A DNA stretch of 64,000 nucleotides from Bacteroidota bacterium (lineage in GTDB: Bacteria > Bacteroidota > Ignavibacteria > Kapaibacteriales > HRBIN21): NCBI GenBank assembly GCA_030550395.1, contig JAUQPL010000001.1:317795-381794 (forward strand). Direction: 5' to 3'. Position numbers and translations under genes: made by a program. Shown piece after piece: positions 8,386 through 56,798 of this stretch. The notes below the pieces were generated by a model. That model was not told the DNA's origin, made no database searches, and saw only the letters and a list, made by a program, of their open reading frames with translations. The first letter of the stretch is position 1. Each line of letters opens with the position of its first letter.

Positions 8386-11300
8386 TCACCGACCGCCGGA
8401 AATTCCCAACCGAATGTCCATCCCAATTTGGAAGGTGCTGTATCCCGGCTGCGCTGCTCCCTCGTTGAAAACCCCATCGTACCGCATGAAAAAGGCCGCT
8501 GTCAAACGCTGACTAATCGTATAGCGCGCCCGCGGCTCCACGGTAATCTGCGTGCTGCCATCCACCCGCAGCCCATCGGGACCTCCGGAACGGAATACAT
8601 CGTGCGATGACGTTACGTTCCGTCGCACCGAAGCCAGAAGGCTCAATTCCACGTCGTTTTTCAGCTCCGTCCCAATGAGAGGCACCACCAACCCTCGCCG
8701 CATATGGTTGACTTGGAGCGAGAACTCATGCGAAACTTGCCGCTGCAGAGAGCGAGCCGCTGCTCCCAATTGGTAGCTATAGCGAACATTGTACCGGAGG
8801 ACCGCCGTCGCTGGCCCTCGAAAGACCTTTTCGTCAAAATTGACCGTCACTCCGACGAAGGGTTGGAAATTCGCTTCCACCTGCTGTGCGTCAATGACGC
8901 GTCCTCGATCTGTCAGCCGGGTGTTCTCCCGATACGTGGAAGTGTACGAATGCTCCAGAGACACCCGCTGTGCACTCACCCTACGGAAGAGCCACCATTT
9001 CTCCAGTCCATCCCATCGAAGCATCCAGTTGACTCGGGGCAGAATGAGCGCCAAAGCCCCGGGATACCAGCGGAAACTTTCCACACCTTCACGGAAGGCT
9101 TCAGACAACGCCTGTTGTAAGCGGACATTCCGTTCGGTGGTATCAGCAACGCTGCCAAGGATTGCTTGGCGCCGCTGGTCATACAATTCCAACACCCGCT
9201 CCGGTGTATTACGGAAGAGCGCCAATACCAGAAGCGGAGGCAGAAACAGCGCCGTACGGCTGTATGAATTTGTGATCACAACATTGGTCGGCGTGGGAAC
9301 ACCGTTGGCATCCGTCCGCAAAGTCCAGTTGCGGTTATATGCGAACTCACTCTTCCACGACAGCGTCAACGTTGCTCCTTCCCAGAGGGGACGCGATGTC
9401 CGCATATCCAGAACGCTCCGTTGAGAAAAATTCTCCTGGAGCACTGCGTTGGGCGGGCGACTACCAAGGGTTGTGACAAAGCCCATGAATGGGAATCCCG
9501 AACGCCCCACCACGCGAATGCGACCATGCGGGGCGGCCAAAAGTCCCAACTGGTACGCCATCGTCGGACCGTAAATAGGGTCTTCCGGACGAAACAGGGG
9601 CGCCCGGAACCAGAAATTCGTCAACCCCGTACCTCCCAGAACCCCAGGGTTTAGCGAACTGTTGTCCTGCTGGAAGTTAATCTGGAAGTTGTCGTAATCG
9701 ACAAGCGCACTCCGCAGAACCCGCAGTATCCGAGCAACCGTGCTTGGGGTATCTGCTGAGGATACTTTGCCGAACAAGTGTTCAGCAAGCTGCTTGAGGC
9801 GGAGTGCCGTATTCCAGCGGAATGAGCTCTGCCACTGCGCCTGCTTGACCACGTCCCGGATTGCTGGATCGGGTTGTCGGGGATCGGTCCAGGAGTACGT
9901 CACCGTATAGGAGCCTGTCATATCCACAAAGCGCTGCACTCGCAACAGCTCCGCAATGCGCGGGCGGAAGTTGAACGTGACGTTCTGTCGCACGGAATTG
10001 TCTTCACCCAAGTAGAGGGGGCTACCGCCCCGGAAGAGCATCTGGCGAAAGATTTCCCCACCGGTCCGCTGGCGCCCTGTGAGAGGGTCCAGTTCTATCG
10101 GAACCAGGGTTGCATTAGAGGTCACGGAATAGTCCACCGTCGGATTGAGCAAGCCTCCCTCGCTGAGACGCCACGTTGCCTGCAGCTGTTTCTGAGCCGT
10201 GAATTCGCGCACGACCGGACTGGGAAAGGGTACATCTCGGAGTTGTTCTGTTTGCCGCCCGCGGGTCAGCGTCAGCCCGAATCCGAAAGTGGTTGGCCAC
10301 GGAGCTAACTGCCATGCAGAGAATTCCTGAATTAGCGGGACTTTTGCTCCCCATCCCAGGGGGCGCAGGGCAATAAGGGGTTGCATCTGCACGGCGTATT
10401 GAAGTGTAAGATTCCACCGCCAGCGGAAGCGTTCGGCAATCTGCGGTGAGCGCTCAAATTCCTGGGCGTAGGCGTACCCGATGGTAAACCGGTTGATAAT
10501 ATCCCTGACCCACCAAGTCTTGAAGGGTAAACCGGGACGCAGACCCGTCAATGCCCAGCTATCCTGAACACGGAGCGTCTGACTCCGAAGGCGTATTTCC
10601 TCCCCTGCCTTCGCTGCCTCCTGCGGAGATGCTCCCTGCTGCAAGCGCTGTTGCTGGACGACATTGGCGACTTCCTCCACAGGCATGTCGTTTTGCGGGA
10701 TGAGATGCGGCTTTTCCAGCATCTCTGAGTGTGTGTACGTCAGCGGAATTCGGAGCTCTCGCCAAGAGGCGGGGAAGAATTTTTCCGCCGCTACCGTAAC
10801 GGTTGCGTTCCAAAGACTCCGGAGAATACGGTCCCCGAAGCGCTCCTCCAGCCGATGGAAGCCCGGCTGGGTTCGCATCGCGTTGATGTTCATGGTGGCA
10901 ATGTCTGCCAGTTTAAGGTCTACCGCTGCTACCCCTGCCCAGTCCGATCGGGCATCGGGCTCTGTCAACCGAAGCTCATCCACCCACACTGTTGTTGTCA
11001 GAAAGTTTGGGAAGCGCTCGGCAGGGTTGGCAATTCCAAGACCGATGAACTGTACTTGTGTCAAGCTGGGATTCCCCCGAATTCGCACGCGCCCCAGCTC
11101 ATCCCCCGGTAATGCCGCTTCTACGACCTGCTGCTGGAAGAGCGAATCCCGCAGCGATTTCAATGCTGCCAACTTCTGCAGATCAATCTGGATGTCTTGC
11201 CATCCCTGGAGTAGCGGACGCCGGTACTCGTAGTAGTTGGAGGAGTCTATGCCGAAGCGGAGAAAGACTTCTGCCACAGGTACTTCACTCCGTCCTATCC

Positions 11301-14300
11301 GGAAGGGCATGCTACCATCGCCGTGGACAAAGAATTTTAGCCTCCGGTAGTACAGCAGATCCAGCCGCTGTGGAAATAGCCGCACCGCCATACGCTCATC
11401 CCCGTAACGCAGGTTCCGGATTCGGAGAACGAGCGATTGTTCGTTGAGCCGAATATCCCGCGTAGGGTCAGGATTGCTCAACTGCCGTGGGGGAAGGACC
11501 CCCGGCGGCATCGTATAGTAGTCTGGCGGACCGCTGTTTTCCTCGCGGCTGACGAAGGCGATCTCCAAGACAGAATCCGCATCGGTAGCAGCCGCCTGGA
11601 AGGGATGACGCCTCTGCCACAGGGACCCCACAAGGCGCCAATCTGCTATCCGGACCGTCAGGGCTCCTCCCTTGACCCAAAGGCGGGCATACTGCACGTT
11701 GGAAAAAAGAGGATTCCCCACCACGCGATCGGGGCGCCGCAAGGGGATACGGTAGAGATACCATCCATTGCTCCCACCACCGACAATTTGCGGGTTGGTC
11801 GCCGGATTAGGATCTAAGCGGATTTCGTAGCTGAAATAGCTGTTTTCCTGCATGAGGGATTGCCCATTGTTGGGATTGAGCACCTCCGTATCAGGGAACT
11901 GTCCCAGCTCCGAGCGGGAGTTGCCCTCAGGGTTGTTGTACCGCTCAAAATCCGCCTGAGTCAGCAACCCCGGGTCCTTAGTGTAGTCAAAGGAAAAGTT
12001 ATCCCGCGCCGGATCCTCCTCCAGCGACAACGGGAATGGCGCGCGGGCGCGCTCGGCCGCATCGTCCAACCCGTCTAAACCCACATCTTCCCCTGCGTCC
12101 AGAATCCCATTGGGCAGCGGAGCTGCTGAAGTGATACCGTCCTCGGTGTCCAGCTTCCCGTTAGGGATGATGTCCTCGCTGATTTGCCCCAAATCAATGA
12201 AGAGCCGAGCATCGGGCTCGGCCTGCTCGATGCGCATCATGATTTCAAGATACTCGAAGTTCTCGGCGTCAAGATTGAGCGGATACGACGACAGCAGTCG
12301 TGTCATCCCAGCCCAGATTCGACGCCGATTTTCCGGCTGCCGTGCGAAAGCCGTCGTGGAATCAAAAAGCGGATTTCGGAAGTCAACAAACGCCGGATTC
12401 GGGTTATAGATGCCCCGTTCATCCGGGCGGAAGACAATGGAGAGTGCCCGCAAATTGCTCTGCCCCGGAATGACATCCCGGTTCGGATAGACCTCCCGGA
12501 TAGGTGTCTCTGGAAGGAAGTACTGGTACCAGAAGAGCTTACCTCGGTAAAGCGCAACCGTAGGAGCATCAGGTCCGATCTCGGGATCAACCGGCGGCGA
12601 AGAATGGCGCCAATACCCCGGAAACATCCCCAACGGGAACCGACGGTCCGCCCCTTCAAAGTCATCAAGGTAAACAACCGGGGCGTTGTTATCAGAGGCA
12701 ACCTCCGAGCGCCGTGTATTGGGGTTGGGGAGCATCTGCGCCAGCTCGGCTCGCAGCACCAAACGCGAGGGCTCCTTGGTATCCACAAACGGAAGGGTGC
12801 GGAGCAGATTCGTCAGCCATGGGGTCTCCCACTGCAGGTTAAAGTCTGTCCCCACCATCCAATTGGAAACGGGTTCATCCCCCAGACGGACTCGGTCGAT
12901 GAGGGCAGCCTGGTGATAGAACATTGTCGTGAATCCCCAGGTCGCTTTCAGCAAACGCCGATTGAGTACGAGCATATCTCCCCGAAGTCCCAGAAGGGTC
13001 CGAGCCCCGATGGAGAAGAGGTCGCGGGGCTCGTATTCCACCTCTACGTTCGCATTCGGCAACAGGGCACGGGGATTACGGAGAATGACCTCCCCACTGT
13101 AGTACTGCACGGTGTAATCCTCTCCTTCCTTCAGGAGTTGCCCGTCTAAGTAGACACGGACACTGCCCGGCTCTAGATTGAAAGCGTTCAAGGATATGCG
13201 AGCGCCCGCCGAACCGGTCACTTCGCCAGCAATAATGAATCGGTCTCGGTCCGTCTGCAGGCGGGCTGCCTCAACCGTTGTGTCATAGATAGCGCCGTAG
13301 ACGTAGCGTTCTGCTAAGGACGGCGTCCCACGAGCAGCGAAATACTGACGGAGCCCTTCCCGGAAAGGCTCTAACGAAGGGAAGATAATCTCCCCCGTCT
13401 GGGCATTGAAAAACGGCGATTGGACCCCTGTGTCAAAGACCCCATCCGGCGTTGGATCTCCCGTTGCATTGTTGACGCGATCTACGCCCAGAATTGTGAC
13501 CAGCTTGTCCGGGCTTCCCTCAAGCACCTCCGTTGAATCATTGCTCTGCCGGACGTACCAGACCCGAACGGTGAGTTCCTGGACATTGCGCGTCCCGATC
13601 GGGTAAATATTCCGAAGCTGCCGCGCCCAGAGGGTTCGGAACCCTGGCTGTAGATTCGGACGATATACCAGCTTGAGCACCAGGGTGTCCCGCTCCCCAG
13701 CGGTGTTTGCAAAGGTACCGTAGACCTGATCATCGTCGGGACTTTCAGTCGGTCCTTCAATGCGATAGGCAACCGCATAGGTGCGGTCCTGCCGCAGGTT
13801 GAGCAATGTCAACAGCCCCAAGTGAGGATTGAAGCGATAATGCGAGGAATCCAAGCGCACGAAGCGCCCGCGCTCGACCTCCCCGGCAACAACGTTTGCT
13901 CTCTTGGACTGCTCGGGATATCGCTGCCCAATGGCAACGGGCGGAAGGTCTGCAAACGCAATTGCTTCGGCCGCCTGCGTGACCCGTAAATCTGTCGTGC
14001 TCTCCCAGACCTCAATCTCTTTGACCCGTAGCGGCGCTGCTGAGGCGGGGACAACCGGAGTAGCGTATCGGAAATACTCTCGGTAGACGGCCCGGTAAGC
14101 CGTGTCCAGGAAGAAGTGATTACGGGCGTAATCATATGCCCGAAGTGCAAAGCGCTGCCGAAGCGCTCCACCTTGGATACGCGTCGTCCGCCGCTCTGCC
14201 CGCTTCTGGGCGGCAACGGTTTTGAGGAAAAGCGGACCAAACTGGAAATCGGAACGGATTCCAAACAGAGCCTGCGCGCCTCCGATGAGCGTTGAAGGGG

Positions 14301-15042
14301 TCTGGAAGTTGACGTTCCCGACCTCAACCTTACGGACGACGTCGTCATCGTAGCCTTCATATCCAATACGGAACTTGTTGTCAAACTCAAACATGCGGTG
14401 AGAGCCCCAATCCACGCCCAACCGGACCTTGTCCCCGATGCGCCCGGAGACGTTCAGGTTGATGGACTGGGAAAAGATGGGACTGGACTGCACCTGCCCT
14501 GTTGCCGAAGCCGTCCCTAAGCGCTGCCAATCCCAGCGCCATCCTGCCCGGATGTTGACATCCCCAGCAACCGAAATGCTGATTTCCGGCTTGCCGAAAA
14601 GCCTCAGCAAGGGGTTAGGAGGAAGGGGAATGGTAAGGGTAGCAATTTGTCCCAAGAGTTGATTCCGCTCTTGTGGAGATAGCGCCAAACGGATATCGTA
14701 GCTCTGCCACAAGGAGTCCCAAATACGGTCCTGCCACAGACGTTGGCGCCACTGCAAATACTCCTCCAAGCTCCACACCGCCGGTGGCAGCAGCTCAATA
14801 CCGTCATAGAGGAGGCGACGACGCCACTGCCACGTGGTGGTATCAAATTCGTAATGCTCTTCCCATACCGCCCGTTGCCCGGGACCGATCCCTTCTGGAC
14901 GAGCCCGATACTGCCAAAGCTCTCTACCGCGGGGGAATCTCTGGTTTGTGTCCACCTGTGCCCAACAAAGCCCTCCAGCAAGGGCTAAGAAAAGACAGCG
15001 TCCCCACCAAGTGTACAGCCCCAGAGCATTCCTATGGCTCAT
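8386..15042 (-). CDS. sprA: SprA (Sov) T9SS outer-membrane translocon
   Basis: A 2218-aa outer-membrane protein matching SprA/Sov, the very large beta-barrel that forms the T9SS conduit. A Sec signal peptide ending LCWAQ follows the ATG at 15042; the frame is open to 15087 but the extra residues are not signal-like. SprA-type segments include SISVAGDVNIRAGWRW, INLNVSGRIGDKV, EFDNKFRIGYEGYDDDVV, VEVEYEPRD, YLDDFEGADRR, VWVDELRLTE and many aromatic beta-strand repeats to the end (ISQRLTAAFFMRYD). Length is near the usual 2300-2500 aa, and no frameshift is apparent. It sits between the cation-efflux gene and a GT9 gene, all on one strand. No other T9SS gene is adjacent, but several candidates occur elsewhere in the window. 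Confidence 0.95.
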   Translation of the reverse strand: MSHRNALGLYTWWGRCLFLALAGGLCWAQVDTNQRFPRGRELWQYRARPEGIGPGQRAVWEEHYEFDTTTWQWRRRLLYDGIELLPPAVWSLEEYLQWRQRLWQDRIWDSLWQSYDIRLALSPQERNQLLGQIATLTIPLPPNPLLRLFGKPEISISVAGDVNIRAGWRWDWQRLGTASATGQVQSSPIFSQSINLNVSGRIGDKVRLGVDWGSHRMFEFDNKFRIGYEGYDDDVVRKVEVGNVNFQTPSTLIGGAQALFGIRSDFQFGPLFLKTVAAQKRAERRTTRIQGGALRQRFALRAYDYARNHFFLDTAYRAVYREYFRYATPVVPASAAPLRVKEIEVWESTTDLRVTQAAEAIAFADLPPVAIGQRYPEQSKRANVVAGEVERGRFVRLDSSHYRFNPHLGLLTLLNLRQDRTYAVAYRIEGPTESPDDDQVYGTFANTAGERDTLVLKLVYRPNLQPGFRTLWARQLRNIYPIGTRNVQELTVRVWYVRQSNDSTEVLEGSPDKLVTILGVDRVNNATGDPTPDGVFDTGVQSPFFNAQTGEIIFPSLEPFREGLRQYFAARGTPSLAERYVYGAIYDTTVEAARLQTDRDRFIIAGEVTGSAGARISLNAFNLEPGSVRVYLDGQLLKEGEDYTVQYYSGEVILRNPRALLPNANVEVEYEPRDLFSIGARTLLGLRGDMLVLNRRLLKATWGFTTMFYHQAALIDRVRLGDEPVSNWMVGTDFNLQWETPWLTNLLRTLPFVDTKEPSRLVLRAELAQMLPNPNTRRSEVASDNNAPVVYLDDFEGADRRFPLGMFPGYWRHSSPPVDPEIGPDAPTVALYRGKLFWYQYFLPETPIREVYPNRDVIPGQSNLRALSIVFRPDERGIYNPNPAFVDFRNPLFDSTTAFARQPENRRRIWAGMTRLLSSYPLNLDAENFEYLEIMMRIEQAEPDARLFIDLGQISEDIIPNGKLDTEDGITSAAPLPNGILDAGEDVGLDGLDDAAERARAPFPLSLEEDPARDNFSFDYTKDPGLLTQADFERYNNPEGNSRSELGQFPDTEVLNPNNGQSLMQENSYFSYEIRLDPNPATNPQIVGGGSNGWYLYRIPLRRPDRVVGNPLFSNVQYARLWVKGGALTVRIADWRLVGSLWQRRHPFQAAATDADSVLEIAFVSREENSGPPDYYTMPPGVLPPRQLSNPDPTRDIRLNEQSLVLRIRNLRYGDERMAVRLFPQRLDLLYYRRLKFFVHGDGSMPFRIGRSEVPVAEVFLRFGIDSSNYYEYRRPLLQGWQDIQIDLQKLAALKSLRDSLFQQQVVEAALPGDELGRVRIRGNPSLTQVQFIGLGIANPAERFPNFLTTTVWVDELRLTEPDARSDWAGVAAVDLKLADIATMNINAMRTQPGFHRLEERFGDRILRSLWNATVTVAAEKFFPASWRELRIPLTYTHSEMLEKPHLIPQNDMPVEEVANVVQQQRLQQGASPQEAAKAGEEIRLRSQTLRVQDSWALTGLRPGLPFKTWWVRDIINRFTIGYAYAQEFERSPQIAERFRWRWNLTLQYAVQMQPLIALRPLGWGAKVPLIQEFSAWQLAPWPTTFGFGLTLTRGRQTEQLRDVPFPSPVVREFTAQKQLQATWRLSEGGLLNPTVDYSVTSNATLVPIELDPLTGRQRTGGEIFRQMLFRGGSPLYLGEDNSVRQNVTFNFRPRIAELLRVQRFVDMTGSYTVTYSWTDPRQPDPAIRDVVKQAQWQSSFRWNTALRLKQLAEHLFGKVSSADTPSTVARILRVLRSALVDYDNFQINFQQDNSSLNPGVLGGTGLTNFWFRAPLFRPEDPIYGPTMAYQLGLLAAPHGRIRVVGRSGFPFMGFVTTLGSRPPNAVLQENFSQRSVLDMRTSRPLWEGATLTLSWKSEFAYNRNWTLRTDANGVPTPTNVVITNSYSRTALFLPPLLVLALFRNTPERVLELYDQRRQAILGSVADTTERNVRLQQALSEAFREGVESFRWYPGALALILPRVNWMLRWDGLEKWWLFRRVSAQRVSLEHSYTSTYRENTRLTDRGRVIDAQQVEANFQPFVGVTVNFDEKVFRGPATAVLRYNVRYSYQLGAAARSLQRQVSHEFSLQVNHMRRGLVVPLIGTELKNDVELSLLASVRRNVTSSHDVFRSGGPDGLRVDGSTQITVEPRARYTISQRLTAAFFMRYDGVFNEGAAQPGYSTFQIGMDIRLGISGGR

Positions 15043-15172
15043 TTCCACTTCCGACGGCTCAACTCCGCTGCGACACTGACGACTCACATCTCTAACGGTG
15101 GTAGCTCTGGAGCACTCCGATCCCTGCTCTCCTGTGGGACATATCCACTTTCTGACGCAGCCCCGTTCTCCA

Positions 15173-30504: not shown

Positions 30505-32484
30505 TTATGGCTTAGGACGTGGAGCCTTCTCTGGGGCCTCTTCCGAATCCCCTGGGGATGGTACTACATCAGGGAGAATTGAGGGCTGGGGAGCCGACTC
30601 CTGTAAAACCGGTTGCGCCGGCGGCTTGGCCGGCGAAGAAGGGGGTGTCGGTGGAGCGGGGTAACGCTGTAGAATCGCCTCCGGTGCAACTCCCTCACGG
30701 CGGGCACGGGCATGGGCAACGCTTAGCCGGATATCGGCAGCGTATTCCGACGTTGGGTATTGCTGGAGCAAAAGCTCATAATAAAACAAAGCGCTATCCA
30801 CCTGCCGCAATGGAGGATGTTCGTACATCCACCCTAACGCATACAATGCCTTGGGAGCATAAGGAGATGCTGGGAAGCGCTCTACCAGGCGGTATAACTG
30901 TTGACGAGCAAGGGTATACTCCCCAATGCGCCACAGGCGCATGCCGGATTCATAGAGCTCAGCCGCCGTGTCAATCAAGGCTTCTGGCGTAAACCCTAAC
31001 AACCGCTGTGCTTCCTGACCGTAGGGAGCCGCAGGACAGCAAGCCGCAAGCTCTTCCAAGAGAGAGTCTCTCAAAGCTGGCTCCGACACCGATAAAGCCA
31101 AAGCCAAGGTAGCCCGAGATCGGTATAGACCCGTATCCGGCGCCACCTGCAAAGCTCGACGATAGAAAAGCTCTGCAGAATCCGCATTCCCGATATTCGT
31201 GTGAACACGCGCCAGTTCGTAGTAGGCCTGACTCAGACGCGCCCGAAGGCTGTCAGAGAGGCTACTTGGCTCGGTTCCCCGAGCGCTGGAAAGTGTCGCC
31301 ATTGCTTGTTCCCAGCGGGCCAGCAGTTCGCTATAGCGGCGTGCCTTTTGGAAGACAGGCGAGCGTGTAACACTGGCGCGAGCAAACAAACGTTGTGCCT
31401 GCCGATACTGTCCATTGCGAAGGAGCTGCATCCCATATTCGTACTGCACCGCCAAGAGTGCAGGGTTTCCAGCAAAGGCGGAATCTGCTCGCCGTTCTAT
31501 GCGAGCGAGGGTGTCTTCGGAAGTTCCCATGCGGCGACGGAACGCAAGTTCCTGAGCTAACGTATAGCCCAGCCATTGCTCATACCGTCGGGATCGGGCA
31601 AGCTTTGTGAGGATTTCCTCTGCCTCGCGGAAACGTCCGCTCCGCGCAAGCGAAGCAGCTCGGTAAAGCTGGGCTTCATACTCCACAACTACCGTTGGAT
31701 TGTATCGGAGGACTTCCGCAAAGGCAGTGGCTGCCTGCTCGAACTGTCCTATGCGATAGTAAAGTGCCCCAATCTCCCACTGCCACCGCGCCCGTTGCTC
31801 CCCGTCGGGGGCAATCAACACTGCCTGCCGATACGGGCGGAAAGCCGCTTCTAAATCACCCTGGCTGAGTGCGAACTCTGCTTGCAGTCGGAAGGCTTCG
31901 CTGAGAACATCGTATCGCTTGTAGTACCACCCGATATCAATCGCACGAGAAAGAGCCTGCTGTCCTAAAGTGTACTTGCGTTGCATCAGATACGCCTTCG
32001 CCAGCAGCAATTGGGCATCAGGAGCAAGATCACCGGTCGGAAAGAGCTGCAGCAGTTCCTGGCATTTGATCTGGGCTGGTAGCCACTCGCTCCGGTAGAA
32101 AAACGCCTGAGCCATCATCAGGAGAGCATCCTCCACGAACTCTGAGCGGGTGCGAAATGCCAAAATCTTAGAGCCCTTCTGCAGAATGGAATCCAAGCGC
32201 TTGTGGACAGGTTGTAGCTTTGCAGGCTCAATGACAAATTCCTGCAGAAAAGGGGGGATTTCCCCTGCCTGTGTGCCCGGGATGATGGAGGGATCAGGAA
32301 CTAATACGCGTGGGCGTTGCACACGCCGTGTCTCATCGTAGTAGCTGAACTCCTCTTCCACCTCGCTCATGAGGCGCCGCATGTTGTAGACGGTGTTGAA
32401 ATACGCCTCGGCATTCCACCATAGCTGGCACCCCGCGCTCAACAGAGTACCTACGCTAAGGAAGAGCGCAGCTCTATGTCCCAT
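30505..32484 (-). CDS. TPR lipoprotein, PorW/SprE-like
   Basis: A 659-aa protein with a lipoprotein signal (SVGTLLSAGC, Cys19). It has at least ten degenerate tetratricopeptide repeats (DLAPDAQLLLAKAYLMQRKY, ALYYRIGQFEQAATAFAEVLRYNP, ALYALGWMYEHPPLRQVDSALFYY) and a proline-rich C-terminus. AYFNTVYNMRRL just after the lipobox is typical of FCB-group outer-membrane TPR lipoproteins. T9SS PorW/SprE is such a protein, and SprA is in this window, so a T9SS role is possible but not shown. BamD-like function is the alternative. The ATG at 32484 is preferred over the GTG at 32493; its 5' end overlaps the M61 gene by 34 bp. Confidence 0.7.
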   Translation of the reverse strand: MGHRAALFLSVGTLLSAGCQLWWNAEAYFNTVYNMRRLMSEVEEEFSYYDETRRVQRPRVLVPDPSIIPGTQAGEIPPFLQEFVIEPAKLQPVHKRLDSILQKGSKILAFRTRSEFVEDALLMMAQAFFYRSEWLPAQIKCQELLQLFPTGDLAPDAQLLLAKAYLMQRKYTLGQQALSRAIDIGWYYKRYDVLSEAFRLQAEFALSQGDLEAAFRPYRQAVLIAPDGEQRARWQWEIGALYYRIGQFEQAATAFAEVLRYNPTVVVEYEAQLYRAASLARSGRFREAEEILTKLARSRRYEQWLGYTLAQELAFRRRMGTSEDTLARIERRADSAFAGNPALLAVQYEYGMQLLRNGQYRQAQRLFARASVTRSPVFQKARRYSELLARWEQAMATLSSARGTEPSSLSDSLRARLSQAYYELARVHTNIGNADSAELFYRRALQVAPDTGLYRSRATLALALSVSEPALRDSLLEELAACCPAAPYGQEAQRLLGFTPEALIDTAAELYESGMRLWRIGEYTLARQQLYRLVERFPASPYAPKALYALGWMYEHPPLRQVDSALFYYELLLQQYPTSEYAADIRLSVAHARARREGVAPEAILQRYPAPPTPPSSPAKPPAQPVLQESAPQPSILPDVVPSPGDSEEAPEKAPRPKP

Positions 32485-34349
32485 GGCGACCACAAGCTCA
32501 CTAATACGCCATCGCCAGGTATACAGGGCAAAGGTTCACGCAACCACTGCTGGACAAAGCCCTGAGATTGCCCATCTTCTGAAGCCCGCGCACGGAGGCG
32601 GGCACGATAGTATGGACGGGGAGTCAGGCGGGTTGTGTATACCCGTCCCTCATTCACAGCAACGATCTCCAATGCCCCCTCTACCATACCGACAAAGGCA
32701 TTCCATTGAGCAATTGTGCGGACCCGTACCCCATTAACTGCCAAAATCTCGTCCCCGACCGCTAACCCAGCATGGGCAGCAGGAGAGAACTCCTCTACCG
32801 CCTCAACCCAGAGTCCCCCATTCTGCTCCCGGAGCGAGATTCCTGTAAAGCGAGTACCTGGAATTTGCCCAAGGACGGCATGCTCACCAATCAGACGCTC
32901 GGGAGCAATGCCCTTAACCCACTGTAATTCCAGCCCAATCAGAGGGAGAACGTCCTCATACGGAAGTTCGCCGCGGTCGGTAAGCCACTCCCACAACAGC
33001 GGGCGGAGTTCCACACCTGTGGCTGCTTCCAGCTCTGAGAAAAGCTCTTCTTCCGTGAAACCCCGGTCAGGCATCTGCTGCGCTCGGCGCCATAAAGCCT
33101 GCAGCCCGTCCTGAAGGCGCTTCTTCCCTCCCGTCTGCGCCAGGATCCACGCATCCAACAGCCAGGCAATGAGGGCTCCCTTGAGGTAATAGGACGGAAA
33201 GCGATTCAAACCGTCCGGACTCTGCCCGTACAGTTTCACCCAAGCTAAGAGGCTACTATCCCGCACAGAGAGAAAGAAGCGCCCAGGAACATGTGCCAAT
33301 TTTTCCACCTCCGCCTCTAAATGGAGTAGCAGTTCCCGCTGCGTCAGATAGCCACACCAGTACGGCAGGAGTATTTCGTAATAGCTGGTTACCCCTTCCA
33401 CAAGCCAGAGCAACGGTGTGTACTGCTCCCGCTCGTAATCAAATGGACCCAATCCCTCCGGACGGATGCGCTTTCCATTCCATGCATGGAAGAATTCATG
33501 GCAGAGAAGGCGCAGAAAGCGATGGGCACCTGCTAACTCCCGTAATGCCGAAGGATCCACGGCAATAACCTGGGAACGAGCGTGTTCCAATCCCCCAAAA
33601 GCTTCCGGCAGAAAGTGAAAGATAAAAACGTAGCGATCGTACGGCAATTCCCCTCCCCAAAATGCCCCGACAACACGGACGACTCGCTCCGTACACCGAA
33701 CAACCCACTCCTCGTCAACAGGCTCATTAGCCAAGATTGCGACCTCATGGAGGCGATTGCCTACAGAGAAAGCGTGAACGCTGTGCGAACCAACCTGGAT
33801 TGGCGAGTCTGCTAAGACATCGTAAGTTACGGCCCCCAAACGAGGGGGAAATCCATGGTCAACGGGTGAGAGCGAAGTTGTGATTCGCTGCCACTGGGCG
33901 GGCTCAAAGTCTACAACAACATGGTGAGGCTCATGCTGGCGTCCTTCCACGTAAGGAAGGCAATTAGAGGGCATAACGAAGGCATACCATCGGCTCACGT
34001 GCGTCGTCCGCACCGAACGTTCATTGCCGAAGTAGACGGCTTTCAGGTAGAGCTTCTCCGCCCCTTCGCAAAAGACACGGAAACGGTTCTTCGCCCGCCA
34101 CTCCACATCCAGTGGACGCCCTCGCTCATCTAGAACCCCTTCCAAGGTGAAGTTCGTTGCAAAGTCCCGAATCTTATAGCTACCCGGCGTCCACGAGGGT
34201 AACACGAAGTCCAGGGACAAGGCCCCGCGGGTGGCGACTTCCATACGGATGTCTAGCAAATGTCGCGCAGCCCGCTCAAAGGACAGCACATAGCAAATAT
34301 CGGCGGGCAAACCGAAAACTTCTGCATCTCGCTGGTCAATCCGATACAT
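32451..34349 (-). CDS. M61-family (glycyl aminopeptidase-like) metallopeptidase with PDZ domain
   Basis: A 632-aa peptidase. The N-terminal beta-domain has LDFVLPSWTPGSYKIRDFA. The gluzincin domain has GGLEHARS, then zinc motif HEFFHAWNGKRIRP (HExxH with the distal Glu in LLWLVEGVTSYYE). A PDZ domain follows (SPAAHAGLAVGDEILAVNGV). This order is that of family M61. No signal peptide is evident, so it may be cytosolic. The frame is open to 34688, but the ATG at 34349, overlapping rlmB by 14 nt, gives the family-like N-terminus. Confidence 0.9.
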   Translation of the reverse strand: MYRIDQRDAEVFGLPADICYVLSFERAARHLLDIRMEVATRGALSLDFVLPSWTPGSYKIRDFATNFTLEGVLDERGRPLDVEWRAKNRFRVFCEGAEKLYLKAVYFGNERSVRTTHVSRWYAFVMPSNCLPYVEGRQHEPHHVVVDFEPAQWQRITTSLSPVDHGFPPRLGAVTYDVLADSPIQVGSHSVHAFSVGNRLHEVAILANEPVDEEWVVRCTERVVRVVGAFWGGELPYDRYVFIFHFLPEAFGGLEHARSQVIAVDPSALRELAGAHRFLRLLCHEFFHAWNGKRIRPEGLGPFDYEREQYTPLLWLVEGVTSYYEILLPYWCGYLTQRELLLHLEAEVEKLAHVPGRFFLSVRDSSLLAWVKLYGQSPDGLNRFPSYYLKGALIAWLLDAWILAQTGGKKRLQDGLQALWRRAQQMPDRGFTEEELFSELEAATGVELRPLLWEWLTDRGELPYEDVLPLIGLELQWVKGIAPERLIGEHAVLGQIPGTRFTGISLREQNGGLWVEAVEEFSPAAHAGLAVGDEILAVNGVRVRTIAQWNAFVGMVEGALEIVAVNEGRVYTTRLTPRPYYRARLRARASEDGQSQGFVQQWLREPLPCIPGDGVLVSLWSPWDIELRSSLA

Positions 34350-42548: not shown

Positions 42549-43631
42549 ATGTGTCGTCTGACGACATACCTGCTTCGCCAGATCGGAGCCGTCTTTGTCT
42601 TTACGCTCGTGGCGCTATGTCTGATCTTCGTCATCGTCAACCTGATTGAAAATTTAGACGACTTCCTCGATACCGGTACTCCAGCGGCGGTTATCGCTGA
42701 GTACTACGTGATTTTCCTGCCAGAGATGCTCAAGTATCTGGCTCCCGTTGCCACGCTTTTGGCATGCTTGTTCGGTATCGGACGGCTGACACAACGCCAC
42801 GAGATCACCGCCATGAAAGCCGCTGGGGTAGGTTTGCCCCAGCTTGGGGCCCCTATCTTCGGAGCAGCAGTGCTATTGAGTTGCGCACAACTACTCCTCA
42901 ACGGCTGGATCGTACCGCGGGCAACCGAACGCAAGCTGGCCATTGAACGGCGTTACTTACAACGCTCACTGCAAAGTCGCATACTGTTCAACATAGCCTT
43001 CCGAGATAGCCCGAGCCTCATTGTTCTCCTGCACCGTTACGAACCCGACGAGTACCGGGCATACGGGGTAGCAGTAGAGGAGTTTACCGCGGACACCTAC
43101 TCCCCTCGGTGGAAGCGGCGGATGGAAGCTGAAGAAATGGTATGGGATAGCGCTACCGGACGGTGGCACTTGTTTCGGGTCCTCGAGCGAACTTACGGCG
43201 ATACAGTCCAGACTGTTACTATCGCCGAAACGACATTAGTGCTCCGCCTTACTCATCAGACTATTCTCCGCCTCCAGCGTACCCCTGCAGAAATGACCCT
43301 GCCGGAGTTGCGGCACTACATTGCTACGCTCTCCACTGGAGGACAGGACGTCCGCCCCCTACAGGTCAACTACTACAGCGAGTATGCTCTGCCCTTTGCC
43401 CACTTAATCGTAGCTCTGCTTTCCGTTCCCCTGGCAGCTGTCTATCGCCGCGCTGGATTAGCAGCGCAATTTGGAACAGCCGCCGTACTCGCCTTCACAT
43501 ACATGGTTCTCACCCGTATTAGCCAAACCCTCGGTGCCGTCACCCCTTTCCCACCACCGATTGCCGGCTGGCTGACCAATGGCGTGTTCCTCATCGCTGG
43601 AGGTGTAATCCTATGGCGGACACGAACGTAA
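42549..43631 (+). CDS. LptF/LptG-family permease (YjgP/YjgQ)
   Basis: Inner-membrane component of the LPS transporter, which extracts LPS with LptB. Length 360 aa. Three helices come first (VFVFTLVALCLIFVIVNLIENLDDF, PEMLKYLAPVATLLACLFGIGRL), with the QRHEITAMKAAGV coupling motif after helix 2. A periplasmic beta-jellyroll segment follows near 140-250, then three C-terminal helices (YALPFAHLIVALLSVPLAAVYRR). A single gene serves here; LptF and LptG are not told apart. The next gene starts 19 bp before its end. Confidence 0.9.
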   Translation: MCRLTTYLLRQIGAVFVFTLVALCLIFVIVNLIENLDDFLDTGTPAAVIAEYYVIFLPEMLKYLAPVATLLACLFGIGRLTQRHEITAMKAAGVGLPQLGAPIFGAAVLLSCAQLLLNGWIVPRATERKLAIERRYLQRSLQSRILFNIAFRDSPSLIVLLHRYEPDEYRAYGVAVEEFTADTYSPRWKRRMEAEEMVWDSATGRWHLFRVLERTYGDTVQTVTIAETTLVLRLTHQTILRLQRTPAEMTLPELRHYIATLSTGGQDVRPLQVNYYSEYALPFAHLIVALLSVPLAAVYRRAGLAAQFGTAAVLAFTYMVLTRISQTLGAVTPFPPPIAGWLTNGVFLIAGGVILWRTRT

Positions 43632-44386
43632 AGGAGCTGCTCTACGAAAAAGCTCAACAACTCTTGAGCCAGCATGGGAGGCTCTACACTCTGCTTGTAA
43701 CGCTGCGTTGGGCTACTACCGGCGCTGACGATGGGGGGATACCAAGGCAGGGTTGGTGGCGCGGTGGAATCCGATGGCTGGAGGCAGTGGTTGTGCCTTT
43801 CTATATGCCGTGGGCAAGCGGATTTGTCTTCCTGGGTGCTGCCGTGCTGCTGCTCTTACTGGGCATCCGCCGCTTCACCGGTGTTATTGGCGAGGAACCC
43901 ATCATCGCTGCCTTCGTTGCCGAAGGCTTTTTCCTGCTCGTGCTCTTCCTGCTTCTCCTCCTTGCCCCCGGCTCTCCATCATCCACCCGCAGTGACGAAC
44001 TATCAACCCTTGTCCACGACCTCAACGATATCGCAACGGACATAACCCGCATCGTGGAGAGCCACGATCAACTCTTGCAGCGTTGGCAGGAAAGTACAGA
44101 GTCCCAGTCCATCGCTCTCCAGAGACTCGACCAATTGCTCCAAAAGCTCCAGCAGCTCCCGTTACCAGGGGCGGCTCTTGTGGCGGAGCTCCAGCAGCTC
44201 CAGCAAGCCCTCTCCCAACTGAACGCTACCATACGGCAGACGGTGGACGAACTCCAGCACTGGCGGAACCAGCAGCTACAGAGCCTGGTCCAACAGGAAC
44301 TGGCACGAATACTGGCAACCTACGCACGGACAGTCGCTGCCCCTGACTCTGGCTCACCTTCTGGGGAATCATCCCACCATGCGTAG
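43613..44386 (+). CDS. Two-helix membrane protein with coiled coil, GldL-like candidate
   Basis: A 257-aa protein with two adjacent membrane helices (about 65-86 and 97-119) and then some 120 residues of Gln/Leu-rich coiled coil. This is the layout of GldL/PorL, the cytoplasmic-membrane half of the T9SS motor. Helix 2 holds a lone buried glutamate (E104, FVAEGFF), like the proton-path Glu of GldL, and helix 1 ends in two arginines (R86, R87). An N-terminal amphipathic stretch of about 60 residues precedes helix 1, which GldL lacks. The gene overlaps both neighbours, and the next one looks GldM-like. Sequence identity to known GldL appears low; a generic coiled-coil membrane protein is the alternative. 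Confidence 0.5.
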   Translation: MADTNVKELLYEKAQQLLSQHGRLYTLLVTLRWATTGADDGGIPRQGWWRGGIRWLEAVVVPFYMPWASGFVFLGAAVLLLLLGIRRFTGVIGEEPIIAAFVAEGFFLLVLFLLLLLAPGSPSSTRSDELSTLVHDLNDIATDITRIVESHDQLLQRWQESTESQSIALQRLDQLLQKLQQLPLPGAALVAELQQLQQALSQLNATIRQTVDELQHWRNQQLQSLVQQELARILATYARTVAAPDSGSPSGESSHHA

Positions 44387-45785
44387 CCCTGTGCCTCACC
44401 AAGGGGAGCTCCTCTTCGTACTTGCTCTGCTGCTGCTCCTCTTTGCCCTCCTGGATATGCCCCTTTCAGAATCCCCGCGCTCATCGCCACGCTTGGTGGG
44501 GTCCACAACCACACCAGCGGTGGAATTCTCTCTGAGCCGCTTTGAGCTTCAGTGCATCATAGAGGACAGCCTCGGCAAGCGCCGATTGGTAAAGCATGAT
44601 TCGCTCCTTGTGCTGTCATATTCTCGCCCTTTGGAACATCTCTCCATCCGTGTGACGGTGGATTCTGCGGGGCATTTAGTGTGGCACTCTACTCACCCGG
44701 AGGCAGCTCGACCGATCAGAATAAAGCCGTATGGAGAACAACGGCGCGTAGAACTCGTATGGCACTTCCCCTGGCAGAAGCCTATACTACCCCCTGGGGA
44801 ACATGTCTACTGGCTTCGCATCCGAGCCTCGTATGCCACAGAACAGGGCACCCAAACCGAGCAATTAACAGCGCGACTCCGTGTGCTCGTCGTCACTGCA
44901 GCTCCCCTCCCCGCCTCCCCCTCTCCTGTAATGGGATCGGTATCTCCCCAACCGCTCAGTCTTGTGCCAATAATCCCGCTCATCGAGGTCCCGCCTCACG
45001 CCCTCTGGGAAAATGAAGTTGTGGTCTACGGCCTGAATCTGGCAACGGACTTAGCTTCTGCACCGCAGATTTCTATTAGCGGAGCACCCAACGGTAATGC
45101 TACCACCCGGGTGGATCCGAAGCTGAATCGCTTACTTCTCAGCGGAAAGGCTCCTTCAGAAGGGGAAATGCAGGTATCCATAACTTTGGCTCGCCGCAGT
45201 GACGGGGAACGCGCCACTGCTTACTTTTCCATCGTCGCACATCCCCTTCCCTCTCCCCATGTCCCCAAGGAAATGTATCCCGAACGGACGTACACTCTGC
45301 AGCCCAATCTCCAACTCCAGGGGCAAATCGCAAGGGCAGAACTCTACGACAATCGGCAGCATCTACTTCGACGCTCCTCTCCTGGCACACCGTTTACTTT
45401 CACCCCCGAACTCTCCGACACTGGTACGACACTTTTATTCCGTCGCTTCGTCAATGAGCAGCTTCTCGACGAGACCCCTATCCTCATCCGTGACTATCCG
45501 CCTCCGGAAATCCTGAACACCTCTCGCGAGAAGGAAGGGCTAAAAGTCCGCACTCGCTGCTTCGGGACTGTAGAAGGTAGGCCGAATCAATGCCAACTAA
45601 CCGTATATGGTCCCGGGAAAGCCCGAGAACTATACGGGGACAAAAGATACTACACCAAGGAGCCGTACGGAACCACGGTTGAGCAAGTCTTTCTGGTGGA
45701 AGGCCCCGACTTGAGTAGAGTCGAACTACTCATCCGCGACCGTGCCGGACGCCAAACCCAGTGGAGCCAGAAGGCGCCTCGTTAA
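44379..45785 (+). CDS. Single-span periplasmic beta-domain protein, GldM-like candidate
   Basis: A 468-aa protein with one N-terminal membrane helix (residues 11-28, ELLFVLALLLLLFALLDMP) and a periplasmic part built of beta-rich domains. IPLIEVPPHALWENEVVVYGLN recalls the GldM segment where a VLYRG-type motif starts domain D3, and the YFSIVAHPLPSPHVPKE stretch resembles its FRVKxxPxPxP junction to D4. GldM/PorM has the same topology and a length near 510 aa. The helical D1 domain of GldM is not obvious. The gene overlaps the GldL-like gene by 8 nt. It ends 6 bp from the convergent murD stop. Homology is inferred from layout and weak motifs. Confidence 0.5.
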   Translation: MRSPVPHQGELLFVLALLLLLFALLDMPLSESPRSSPRLVGSTTTPAVEFSLSRFELQCIIEDSLGKRRLVKHDSLLVLSYSRPLEHLSIRVTVDSAGHLVWHSTHPEAARPIRIKPYGEQRRVELVWHFPWQKPILPPGEHVYWLRIRASYATEQGTQTEQLTARLRVLVVTAAPLPASPSPVMGSVSPQPLSLVPIIPLIEVPPHALWENEVVVYGLNLATDLASAPQISISGAPNGNATTRVDPKLNRLLLSGKAPSEGEMQVSITLARRSDGERATAYFSIVAHPLPSPHVPKEMYPERTYTLQPNLQLQGQIARAELYDNRQHLLRRSSPGTPFTFTPELSDTGTTLLFRRFVNEQLLDETPILIRDYPPPEILNTSREKEGLKVRTRCFGTVEGRPNQCQLTVYGPGKARELYGDKRYYTKEPYGTTVEQVFLVEGPDLSRVELLIRDRAGRQTQWSQKAPR

Positions 45786-48970: not shown

Positions 48971-51442
48971 TTATCGGACAAGCCTGACAGGGATCCCCCA
49001 CCGCCCTTGAGCTGAGGTCAAGTACAGAAGGTAAACCCCATCTGCAAGCCCAGCCGGCAGCGGTACTCGCACCAGGTGCTCGCCCTCAGACACCTGTTCC
49101 CACCGAAGCTCTTGGACTACCTGTCCCAGCAAGGTCATCAGCCGTAGTTGCACCTGGAATAGTGGTTCGGGTAGCTGCACCCGCAGCCAAAGCCCGTTGC
49201 CTTGATCGGAGAAAGGCTGGATCCGGACTGTGGACTGCACGGGGAAGAACTCCACAGAGATAGGAGGTTCGATGACGAACGGGGCTGCACTCTGCACACT
49301 CTGGTCCATATTGGCAAGGTTGCGCAGACGGACCAATGCCTGCTCTGTGGGTGTATTGGGAACCGTCCATTCATACTGCATCACTGTTGCGTCCTGCGTC
49401 GCTCGGATCGTCCTCCAGCTTTGCCCACCATCTGTAGAGTACTCAATCCGGATACGGCTTACGAAATCCGACTGCCAGCGGATCCACTGCTTCGTTCCCG
49501 CCGCCCAGCGCTCACCCCCATTTGGTACCAACAAGGATAGCTGGGGGATCCCAATGGCAAAGAACGGGCTTTGGTCTGCTACCGTTGGATCGGCCGTGTC
49601 CTCAATTCGGATTACTGCCCGATCTGTCTGCACCATCGGGACGGTCCATACATAGGAACGTCCCGAGGTTGCCGGCACCAAGGTGTCCCAGCTTGCTCCT
49701 CCATTGGAACTGAACAGAAGGCGGACAACCGAGACCAATGTGGCTGACCATTCAATATTGACCTGCTCCCTCTGTCCATAGCGTTCTCCGCCGACAGGAC
49801 GGGATAGACGCAGCTCAGGTATCTGGATAGCAAAGCTTGCCAGCGTAGTATCCCCAACGGCAGGGTCTGCCGTATTGTAAATCCGGAGCCATACAACTGG
49901 AATGTTGGCTCGGGGCAATTCCCAGCGGTAGCTCCGCTGGGTTGCCGCAATACCGGTAGCAATACGTTCCCACGTCCGCATGCTATCGGTCGAATACTCC
50001 AGCGTAACATTCTGCACCTGAGCCGAAGTCCAGCGAATCTCCAGCTGTGAACCGCCTCGGAACGACTGCTTCCCAACCGGGTGCTGCAACAAAAGCAATG
50101 GTGTTGATGGCTGGGCTAAACATGCCTCTGCCCGACTATTCCGGAGCACTACAGCAACTCGCTGACGGAAGGTCAAAGCAACAGAGGGCTGAACCAAATG
50201 GCAGTAGCTCATAATGCTACCACCATCCCACGATGGACGGGGGATGATCGGGGACCGATAACAGGCATCCGGAGTGGGATAGGGATTGCCATCCTGCGTC
50301 ACACATGTATCCAGCGGTGGGCTCCAATAGCAAGCATGGGTATGCGGGGCTCCGAATACATGTCCGATTTCATGAGCCACTACGTGCACGTCCCACGTAT
50401 AGCCCAGCGTTGGATACGCGTAAGTACCTCGGATACCACTGACGCTATAAGCGCTGCCTGGAGAACAGAGGGTATTCAGCCGTGCGATACCCCCGACCAT
50501 AGTGCCACCAGGAGCTGTCATCACGTGTACCAAATCCCGCTCCACACTGCGACGGTGTTGGTTCCAATACGCAGACACCTCGCCTAAAAGCGCTCCGATG
50601 TCGTTATCGTTCTGGTACGGGTCCTCCTCGCCATCGGGCGGTTCCATCCAGATGAGAATCCAGGGCAGGAGGAAAGTCACATTAAGCTCGTCCTCGTAGA
50701 TACGAGCGACCATGGCAAACAGAGAGGCAATGTAGGCCGCCACTCGGTCATAGTCCCGATTGAGCCGCACATAGAGCGAAGAAGTGGCTTCTACAGCCAC
50801 TCGCGCTTGCCGCAATGTCGTAAAGTGTGGTATCGGCTGGGTCGGCTCTTTTATCATGCGGAGTTGTTCCCAGTAGTCACTCATCTGCTCAATAGCACAG
50901 AGCCATTGGGACAGTTGGCTCTGTGTAGTCAATTCCCCCAGCACGTGCTCCCGTTCGTTGCCCCAGCGCTGTCCGCTGGGGACGAATTCCCAAAGGCGTC
51001 CGTTTCTCCGGCGGATGAATCCATAGAGCTCCCCGCCAACCACGCTCAGAGTAACTTGCGAGCCCGGCTCGCCGAGGATATGTCCGTGGAACACGTACTG
51101 TGTAATCCCCTGCATCGGCTCCAGCTGTTCCGGCTGTCCATCCCGTGCTGGGCGAACACCCCGCCACCACTGCGTCTGCGCATCCACCACCGACCGCGCC
51201 CGCCGCAGGTGCACAGTTGCCTCCTCCCCATATCCGACGGGGAAATCGCTCAGCCTTAACTCCGCCTGCGGAAGCATCGCCACCGCCTGCAAAACCAGCC
51301 CCCGCACCCAATACCCTCCCACTGGCTGCACCTGCAACAGATTTTCCGCCGGCCGCAGGAACAGCCGTGCCGATATGTGCTCCTGCGCTATTCCCACAAT
51401 GCTACCGAGCACCACTCCAAGTCCGAAGAACACCCAACGCAT
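48971..51442 (-). CDS. Secreted reprolysin-like metalloprotease with T9SS-type C-terminal sorting domain
   Basis: An 823-aa exported protein. A signal peptide (FFGLGVVLGSIVGIAQ) and propeptide-like region lead to a metzincin domain with HExxHxxGxxH at 357-367 (HEIGHVFGAPH) and a Met-turn in SIMSYCH. Three related beta-sandwich repeats follow, each with a GGxRY/GGERW start and EYSTDxGxSW core (about 470-740). The last 75 or so residues (LRLMTLLGQVV, LADGVYLLYL, PVRLVR) have the T9SS type A sorting-domain pattern, so the protein is probably carried across the outer membrane by the SprA translocon encoded at 8386. ATG 51442 is chosen for the signal peptide; the frame reaches 51535. Confidence 0.88.
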   Translation of the reverse strand: MRWVFFGLGVVLGSIVGIAQEHISARLFLRPAENLLQVQPVGGYWVRGLVLQAVAMLPQAELRLSDFPVGYGEEATVHLRRARSVVDAQTQWWRGVRPARDGQPEQLEPMQGITQYVFHGHILGEPGSQVTLSVVGGELYGFIRRRNGRLWEFVPSGQRWGNEREHVLGELTTQSQLSQWLCAIEQMSDYWEQLRMIKEPTQPIPHFTTLRQARVAVEATSSLYVRLNRDYDRVAAYIASLFAMVARIYEDELNVTFLLPWILIWMEPPDGEEDPYQNDNDIGALLGEVSAYWNQHRRSVERDLVHVMTAPGGTMVGGIARLNTLCSPGSAYSVSGIRGTYAYPTLGYTWDVHVVAHEIGHVFGAPHTHACYWSPPLDTCVTQDGNPYPTPDACYRSPIIPRPSWDGGSIMSYCHLVQPSVALTFRQRVAVVLRNSRAEACLAQPSTPLLLLQHPVGKQSFRGGSQLEIRWTSAQVQNVTLEYSTDSMRTWERIATGIAATQRSYRWELPRANIPVVWLRIYNTADPAVGDTTLASFAIQIPELRLSRPVGGERYGQREQVNIEWSATLVSVVRLLFSSNGGASWDTLVPATSGRSYVWTVPMVQTDRAVIRIEDTADPTVADQSPFFAIGIPQLSLLVPNGGERWAAGTKQWIRWQSDFVSRIRIEYSTDGGQSWRTIRATQDATVMQYEWTVPNTPTEQALVRLRNLANMDQSVQSAAPFVIEPPISVEFFPVQSTVRIQPFSDQGNGLWLRVQLPEPLFQVQLRLMTLLGQVVQELRWEQVSEGEHLVRVPLPAGLADGVYLLYLTSAQGRWGIPVRLVR

Positions 51443-51479
51443 CGCCAAACTTCCACAGAGCTTTTGAAACTTCAAGCCA

Positions 51480-51512
51480 CAAAAATACAAACCCCTCTGC
51501 CTCCGACTCCAA
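51480..51512 (-). promoter_or_regulatory. Promoter for the metalloprotease operon
   Basis: On the minus strand TTGGAG (51512-51507), a 19-bp spacer and TATTTTTG (51487-51480) fit the Bacteroidota TTG/TAnnTTTG pattern. The box lies 37 nt before the start at 51442. Confidence 0.5.
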
Positions 51513-51583
51513 TAGCATCTGCTCTCAGCCCACAAAATTGGCCCCCTGAGCGTCTATTACTGCCCACGGGAAGCTCGGCCGTT

Positions 51584-54586: not shown

Positions 54587-55926
54587 CGGGCTCCCTCCAT
54601 ATCCTGCACTGCAACGGACACACACTCCTTCTGGACTGCGGACTCTTCCAAGGTCGCCGCGCAGAAACAAATGAACGGAATCGCACCTTCCCCGTTCCAC
54701 CTGCCCGAGTTCACGCTGTCATTCTCTCTCACGCTCACCTGGACCACTCAGGGAACCTACCGACACTGGTCAAAGCCGGTTTTCCCGGTCTCATCTACGC
54801 TACTCCAGCCACCGCAGACCTCTGCGCCATTATGTTGACCGATAGCGCCCACATTCACGTCAAAGACGCGGAATTCCTCTACCACCAGCGCGGCGAGAGG
54901 ATAGAGCCACTCTACACACCAGAGGATATCCCGAGAACGTTGGCGCGCTTTTTCCCTGTCAATTACGACGAGCGTGTCCGTATCCTCCCTGGTGTTACAC
55001 TCTGCTTCCGCCAAGCAGGACATATCCTCGGCTCTGCCCAAGTTCTGCTGGAGATCGTGGAAAACGGACGGACTCTCCGGCTCGGCTTTACGGGAGACCT
55101 GGGACGCTCTTCTCCCACACTGCTTCCTCCACCGGCCGCTCCCGAAGCCGTTGATGTCCTTATTGCCGAATCCACCTACGCGGGGCGCCGCCACGAGGCA
55201 ACAGAAAGTGTTCGCGCCAAGCTTCACGCCCTCTTCCACGAAATTGCCTCCCAGCGGGGGATTCTCCTGATTCCTGCCTTCGCTGTCGGACGGACACAAG
55301 AGCTGCTCTTCCATCTGAATGCCTTAGCAAATGCCGGTGAGCTACCCGATATGCCCATCTTCGTCGATAGCCCCTTAGCCGAACAAGCTACGCGCGTTTT
55401 CTTCCGCTATCGCGCTGAATTCAACACGACAGTGCAGGACCTCCTGCGAACGGACCCGGATCCGTTCAGCTTCCCACAGCTCCGCTTCACCCGCAGCGTG
55501 GAAGAATCTAAAGCCATTCGCCATGTGGACCCTCCATACGCTGTTATCGCCGGCTCCGCAATGTGTGAATCTGGCCGTATTCTCCACCATCTCCGGCATC
55601 ACATCGGCAATCCTCGCACAACTGTCCTTTTCGTAGGTTTCAACGCGGCTCACACCTTGGGGCGCCGGCTGGTTGAGGGCGAAAAACAGGTTCGTATCTT
55701 CGGAGAGCTCCACACCGTACGAGCCCGCATCTTAGAAATGTCCGGATTGAGTGCCCATGCCGATGGAGAAGAGCTCCTGCAGTATTTTTGCTTGCTTCCA
55801 TCAACAACTCTGATTGTCCTCGTCCATGGCGAACCCTCTTCCCAGCAGCTTCTGCAACGACAACTCCAACAGGAAGGCTTCTCGCAGGTCCTCATTCCCC
55901 AACCGGGACAATGGCTGAGGCTGTAG
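54550..55926 (+). CDS. MBL-fold beta-CASP ribonuclease
   Basis: A 458-aa metallo-beta-lactamase/beta-CASP nuclease of the TTHA0252/YsfA type, processing RNA. Zinc ligands H61, H63, D65, H66 (HAHLDH); [23 protein letters not shown]; beta-CASP motifs [35 protein letters not shown] and [10 protein letters not shown]. It starts [15 protein letters not shown], the family N-terminus, overlapping the macro-domain gene by 37 bp. It ends 16 bp inside the NUDIX-TadA gene, so these genes are probably co-translated. Confidence 0.93.
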
Positions 55927-56798
55927 TACCGGTGGAGGTTGTCGCCGCTGTCCTCCTTGCGGACGGACACGTTCTTCTGTGCCGACGCTCTCCCAACGTT
56001 GCCTATCCGCTCCAGTGGGAGTTCCCTGGTGGGAAGGTTGAGCCTGGGGAAAGCCCCGAGGAAGCCCTTTGCCGAGAGCTTGCCGAGGAGCTGGGAATCC
56101 ACGCAACCGTGGGCCAAGAATTGTGGCAGACAGAGTATGCTTACCCCGATGGTCGGCACTTCCTCCTCCGTTTTTTCTCGGTCACGCATTGGGAGGGGAC
56201 ACCTACCCCCCGGGTCGGTGTAGACAAACTGGCATGGGTACTCCCTACCGCCGTGGGAATGTATCCGATCCTGGAGGGCGACCGAGAGTTCGCTATCGTA
56301 CTTCCATGGCTCCTTCAGCCAGAGTCGTACGACGCTGATGCCATCTTCATGCGAATTGCCCTTCTGGAAGCTCAACGAGCATACACTCAGGGAGAAGTAC
56401 CCGTTGGAGCGGTTATCGTCCGCCAAGGACGGATTATTGCCCGTGGTCGCAATGCCGTAGAGCATGGTAGGGACGCTACCCTCCATGCGGAAATAGTAGC
56501 AATCCGCCAAGCATCCGCTGCCATAGGACGGCGCTTAGAAGAATGCACGCTGTACGTAACCCTTGAGCCCTGCCCAATGTGCGCCGGTGCGATTGTCTGG
56601 GCACGCATCCCTCGGGTGGTCTACGGCGCCCCTGACCTGCGGGCAGGCGCTTGCGGTACGTTATACAACATTGTGCAAGACGAGCGCCTTAACCATCGCT
56701 GTTCCCTTCGCAGCGGTGTCTTAGCGGAGGAATCCGCTCACCTACTGCGGAGTTTCTTCCGACAATTGCGCGAGGAAGACCGTGCAGTGGACCCCTGA
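55911..56798 (+). CDS. NUDIX hydrolase-TadA deaminase fusion
   Basis: One 295-aa frame with two enzymes. Residues 5-135 are a MutT/NudG-like NUDIX domain with a complete box (41-63: G-x5-E-x7-REL-AEE-LGI), expected to hydrolyse oxidised or modified (d)NTPs. Residues 146-290 are a tRNA adenosine-34 deaminase (TadA): zinc ligands H192 with catalytic E194 (HAE) and C221/C224 (PCPMC), plus EVPVGAVIV. No stop codon lies between. M147 would be a normal TadA start, so a separate TadA may also be made. The gene overlaps the beta-CASP gene by 16 bp; rsmI starts 17 bp before its end. Confidence 0.9.

Follow-up and report, generated by a model that had tools for sequence, protein, structure and literature searches.

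The 64,000-nt stretch of DNA analysed here (the window) is part of contig C14 in a genome of 1.94 Mb that is 99% complete. It contains two overlapping genes, designated here LL and MM, which follow a gene for an LPS export permease. The features of the window discussed below are these:

8386..15087, minus strand: sprA, the T9SS outer-membrane translocon (TIGR04189, 943.8 bits)
30505..32493, minus strand: SprE/PorW-like TPR protein (NF052312, 6.6e-31, below cut-off)
42549..43631, plus strand: LptG-like permease for LPS export; 19-nt overlap with LL (Pfam LptF_LptG, NCBIfam LptG)
43613..44386, plus strand: LL, candidate GldL-like stator protein, 257 aa (ORF; GldL profile match; orthologues across the order)
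43811..43867, plus strand: LL transmembrane helix 1, about residues 67-85 by hydropathy; G75-A76 invariant and R87, just after the helix, nearly invariant in the alignment
43901..43957, plus strand: LL transmembrane helix 2, about residues 97-115 (hydropathy, alignment)
43922..43924, plus strand: codon for LL Glu104, invariant in 28 LL sequences; it falls on the Glu in TMH2 of GldL (F. johnsoniae E49)
43982..44338, plus strand: LL cytoplasmic coiled-coil helices, residues 124-242 (AlphaFold2)
44379..45785, plus strand: MM, candidate GldM-like axle/periplasmic shaft protein, 468 aa (ORF; present in 60 of 61 genomes from the order; aligns weakly and colinearly with GldM D2-D3)
44400..44450, plus strand: MM N-terminal membrane helix, residues 8-24 by AlphaFold2, about 11-29 by hydropathy, with a conserved motif
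44526..44897, plus strand: MM domain 1, beta-rich, residues 50-173 (AlphaFold2)
44958..45488, plus strand: MM domains 2-3, the part aligned to GldM D2-D3, residues 194-370 (AlphaFold2 and profile alignment)
45507..45767, plus strand: MM domain 4, beta, residues 377-463 (AlphaFold2)

A preliminary description of this DNA had proposed that the two genes encode a divergent GldL/GldM pair coupled by overlap to an LptF/G permease. The gene arrangement that it gave is borne out: both ORFs were confirmed and overlap by 8 nt, and the permease matches Pfam LptF_LptG at 2.1e-77, its best NCBIfam model being LptG (3.2e-61; 206.9 bits, below the cut-off of 240). The topologies that it gave are upheld as well. 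Hydropathy places two membrane helices in LL, with Glu104, invariant in the alignment of 28 sequences, in the second; a long coiled coil follows. Besides E104, residues G47, G51, V72, G75, A76 and L108 are invariant in this alignment, and the AlphaFold2 model (pLDDT 83.8) has long helices up to residue 242, including 124-181 and 187-242. For MM, hydropathy and AlphaFold2 place a single N-terminal helix, in which alignment reveals the conserved motif E10/Y12-F13/L15-Y16-L17, ahead of a beta-rich periplasmic part; the model (pLDDT 88.1) consists of this helix and four beta domains.

LL has no convincing match to any curated family in Pfam or NCBIfam. In particular, the cut-off of TIGR03513 (GldL) is not reached: hmmscan gives no match for LL, and there is none at its place in the genome. 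A PDB profile search with the LL alignment returned only coiled-coil matches, and Foldseek with the LL model returned no match. However, profile-profile comparison with GldL, using reference GldL and GldM sets drawn from Bacteroidota genomes, lies well above the controls. Both membrane helices align, Glu on Glu, with a P value of 3.1e-5; with 100 sequences this becomes 2.4e-7 (hhalign score 56.2), whereas none of 60 column-shuffled controls exceeded 21.4 and the reversed profile reached 27.8. When 23 conserved neighbourhood families are compared with GldL, LL ranks first (48.7; next 23.9), and its membrane core alone keeps the match (3.7e-5). The canonical GldL HMM also matches LL orthologues directly, at best with 2.5e-6. 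These comparisons support the view that LL is a distant GldL homologue. (A separate GldL match of 0.0356, within a 1178-aa frame at locus L001, was rejected as chance; 9 of 14 control genomes also score at that threshold.)

With GldL/PorL (TIGR03513), LL shares two adjacent membrane helices, a strictly conserved Glu in TMH2, a long cytoplasmic helical tail, a similar length, and a gene that precedes that of the M partner. It differs in having about 60 extra conserved N-terminal residues before helix 1, which starts near residue 67 in LL but within about the first 30 residues of canonical GldL. Work on GldL has indicated that E49 is strictly conserved and essential for secretion, while E59 is needed for gliding only (PMC8986121). 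The LL of the window has no acidic residue 10 positions after E104, where GldL has E59; this absence might, rather speculatively, fit a motor that serves secretion only.

The case for MM is weaker. MM does not reach the cut-off of TIGR03517 (GldM) and has no convincing curated match in Pfam or NCBIfam. A PDB profile search with its alignment gave nothing significant, GldM/PorM not being among the reported matches, and the 50 Foldseek matches listed are generic multi-Ig chains only, with no GldM/PorM. Against the GldM profile, MM scores 33.9-37.8, colinear over D2-D3, compared with a maximum of 21.3 for shuffled and 18.5 for reversed profiles; it also ranks first against GldM among the 23 neighbourhood families (31.6-33.1), although the margin over the next (25) is modest. 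This similarity, which falls short of that between LL and GldL, is suggestive but not conclusive. The overall design is common to MM and GldM/PorM (TIGR03517): a single N-terminal helix followed by four domains in the periplasm. The difference lies in the first of these domains, which is predicted to be beta in MM, whereas D1 of GldM is a five-helix domain (helices 1-5; domain limits in PMC5790014).

Locus L104, in genome G164 from a different class, also encodes divergent GldL/GldM proteins. It carries an L-M pair like LL/MM, with intermediate scores against the canonical profiles (2.8e-7 for GldL and 8.7e-10 for GldM); unlike LL/MM, this pair sits near a GldK-like gene. The match of its M protein (380 aa) starts only at GldM position 232, so that this protein, too, is without the helical D1, and D1 therefore appears to be replaceable. 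The proposal of a divergent GldL/GldM pair thus stands for LL as a distant homologue and, less firmly, for MM as the neighbourhood family that scores best against GldM; it does not stand for MM as a GldM over its full length. Because some defining features of each curated family were looked for in LL and MM and not found, the pair is reported as a divergent variant rather than as a member of either.

The pairing of the two genes is a conserved property. LL adjoins MM, on its upstream side, in 27 of 30 loci examined, and MM directly follows LL in 62 of the 70 loci in which the LL gene has a visible downstream neighbour; some families retain both genes but have them at separate places. (A narrower LL alignment was the seed for the profile scan of the genomes' contigs.) The gene ahead of LL is LptG in at least 30 of 69 loci, and a flippase-like gene often accompanies it; 30 is a lower bound, because the non-overlap filter removed the LptG that overlaps LL in the window itself. 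There the tie of the pair is to LptG, not to any T9SS gene. Nor is there a gldK-L-M-N operon, of which only the order of L before M is kept: GldK and GldN HMMs gave no match around LL/MM, and comparison of the GldK and GldN profiles with the neighbouring families gave nothing convincing. A different arrangement is seen in genome G010 (locus L060), where a flippase-like gene, LptG, LL, MM, P1 (described below), the PorU-like sortase and a TPR protein lie in this order on one strand. This contiguous cluster, found in one genome only, is the strongest direct link between LL/MM and the T9SS.

Relatives recorded as Candidatus Kapaibacterium, Kapabacteria or 'Ignavibacteria' carry the same gene, so that the host is a Kapabacteria-type member of the Bacteroidota in their broad sense. 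Elsewhere in the class, related pairs are accompanied by predicted secreted or barrel-like proteins that belong to no known family. At L264:1318-10192 (minus strand; family f46), LL, MM, a P2-type gene and a second MM-like gene (MM2) follow one another in a run that also includes two secreted proteins without a known family; these look like two adjacent motor pairs. Family f13, which has several GldL-core genes per genome, contains shorter LL-MM pairs beside predicted outer-membrane barrel-like proteins without Pfam matches (L263:9877-14676 and L258:6850-11744). Kapabacteria-type LL-MM neighbourhoods were also seen in contigs labelled Bradyrhizobiaceae (L184) and Desulfobulbaceae (L209), which are probably misbinned or mislabelled.

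A T9SS is present in this genome. SprA lies in the window, as had been noted; a PorU/PorU2-related C25 sortase lies elsewhere on the same contig, and the genome has 27 matches to the sorting domain (CTD) at E<=0.001, 19 of them over the cut-off. The sorting-domain cargo that had been placed within the window was not confirmed, though these matches lie elsewhere in the genome: the candidate at 48971-51535 (minus strand) is a large secreted protein that carries the zinc-protease motif HExxHxxGxxH, and its apparent CTD-like end stays below the sorting-domain threshold. No canonical gldL or gldM turned up elsewhere: GldL, GldM and GldN have no match over cut-off in this genome. The statement in the preliminary description that the pair is separate from gldK/gldN is not borne out as it stands: it assumes a gldN, which is undetectable in the genome, and the one match to GldK, an FGE-sulfatase-type domain encoded on another contig, stays below cut-off. 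In one family of the order, no GldK was found in the sampled members; three complete-looking genomes of family f2 (G006, G015 and G022) have SprA and LL/MM with no GldK match at all. GldN was found in none of 20 genomes sampled from this class versus 18 of 60 others, and canonical GldL is not found over cut-off in the class. SprA is present in 148 of the class's 149 genomes, and therefore co-occurrence with it cannot separate hypotheses within the class.

Two further kinds of protein that have the same core, P1 and P2, are picked up by the LL profile as well. In this genome, P1 and its neighbour are as follows:

L245:9799-11163 (C14:417298-418662 in the genome), minus strand: P1, four-helix GldL-core paralogue, 454 aa, with the core and its transmembrane Glu at the C-terminal end
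L245:4049-9742: PorU-like C25 sortase, 1897 aa, with P1 directly upstream

Ahead of its core, P1 carries a further pair of N-terminal helices and a cytoplasmic segment, an order of parts reminiscent of MotA; its transmembrane Glu is invariant in 38 sequences. It occurs in 60 of the 61 genomes of the order, and five of the six own-order loci inspected, including that of this genome, have it directly upstream of the C25 sortase. Within the genus, P1 is conserved at 79-85%, compared with 32-53% for MM. Against GldL, however, the P1 core scores far lower than LL. Most of the order also has P2, of about 340 aa, but it was not detected in this genome; at L247:9248-15153, P2 is followed by an AAA ATPase and then a BNR-repeat secreted protein. 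The argument that a T9SS makes the LL/MM pair necessary holds in that a T9SS is present, but it overlooked P1, a second protein with the GldL core, directly upstream of the PorU-like sortase.

Taken together, these observations argue that LL and MM probably form a proton-driven stator/axle pair of the GldLM type, though a highly divergent one, and that this pair is most likely the T9SS inner-membrane motor of this lineage, the role in the T9SS being suggested by genomic context. As far as the sequences and the monomer models go, the pair would work like GldLM. By analogy, five LL subunits would ring two MM helices, and cycles of protonation at LL Glu104 would produce relative rotation; the periplasmic shaft of MM beta domains could then transmit force to the SprA machinery in the outer membrane and to the C25 sortase. 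MotAB, ExbBD and TolQR follow the same general plan, in which an ion-driven ring encloses a dimeric axle, a likeness by analogy only: LL, MM and P1 have no Pfam match to MotA/ExbB/TolQ or MotB/ExbD/TolR at the thresholds used.

The same genes could be read differently. LL/MM might be a GldLM-type motor for another envelope task, such as LPS/O-antigen export or surface-polymer attachment, with P1, beside the PorU-like sortase, driving the T9SS. The frequent LptG and flippase-like neighbours of LL would suit such a task, as would the company of secreted or barrel-like proteins kept by related pairs elsewhere in the class, while P1 has the same core and Glu, the position upstream of PorU, the wide distribution and the better conservation within the genus. 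Nevertheless, no GldM-like partner of P1's own is evident at loci of this order, the P1 core lies far below LL in the comparison with GldL, and the single cluster of L060 suggests one system; we consider this division of labour unlikely. Still less likely is a merely structural analogy, in which LL and MM would form a membrane scaffold, or a separate motor of the 5:2 type, that came to a GldLM-like topology by convergence. Neither protein has a curated match, the multi-Ig shape of MM is generic, and the coiled coil of LL draws matches to unrelated ones; yet the similarity between LL and GldL resides in the membrane core, not in the coil, exceeds the shuffled, reversed and neighbour-family controls, and is also seen in the direct matches of the GldL HMM to LL orthologues. 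That the two have nothing to do with each other or with any motor, and are simply membrane proteins, is very improbable given the invariant buried Glu, the order-wide conservation, the pairing and the co-occurrence with the T9SS. There is also a broader version of the motor reading, which we regard as conceivable though doubtful, in which the Kapabacteria T9SS is run by diversified GldL-core stators, namely LL/MM and P1 coupled to the PorU-like sortase, often with P2, and without a recognisable GldN ring part. If true, this would be a multi-stator T9SS, perhaps one that couples secretion to LPS attachment.

Surveys of the T9SS rest on the TIGRFAM GldK-N profiles, and the system has been described as confined to Bacteroidetes sensu stricto (PMC4793230), although reviews assign it to the FCB superphylum as a whole. 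Within the part of the literature covered, we found no paper describing GldL or GldM in Kapabacteria or Ignavibacteria. SprA is nearly class-wide, but no canonical GldL match reaches the cut-off and, in the sampled members, GldN was not found, so that the motor was missing on paper, and LL/MM is a candidate for it. As a GldLM-type motor, the pair would suggest that the two helices, the one Glu and the beta shaft are constrained, while the helical D1 can be replaced; the position of P1 beside the sortase raises the question of multiple stators. Elsewhere in the window, one ORF at 55788-56798 (plus strand) combines an N-terminal NUDIX domain with a C-terminal domain of the cytidine-deaminase type.
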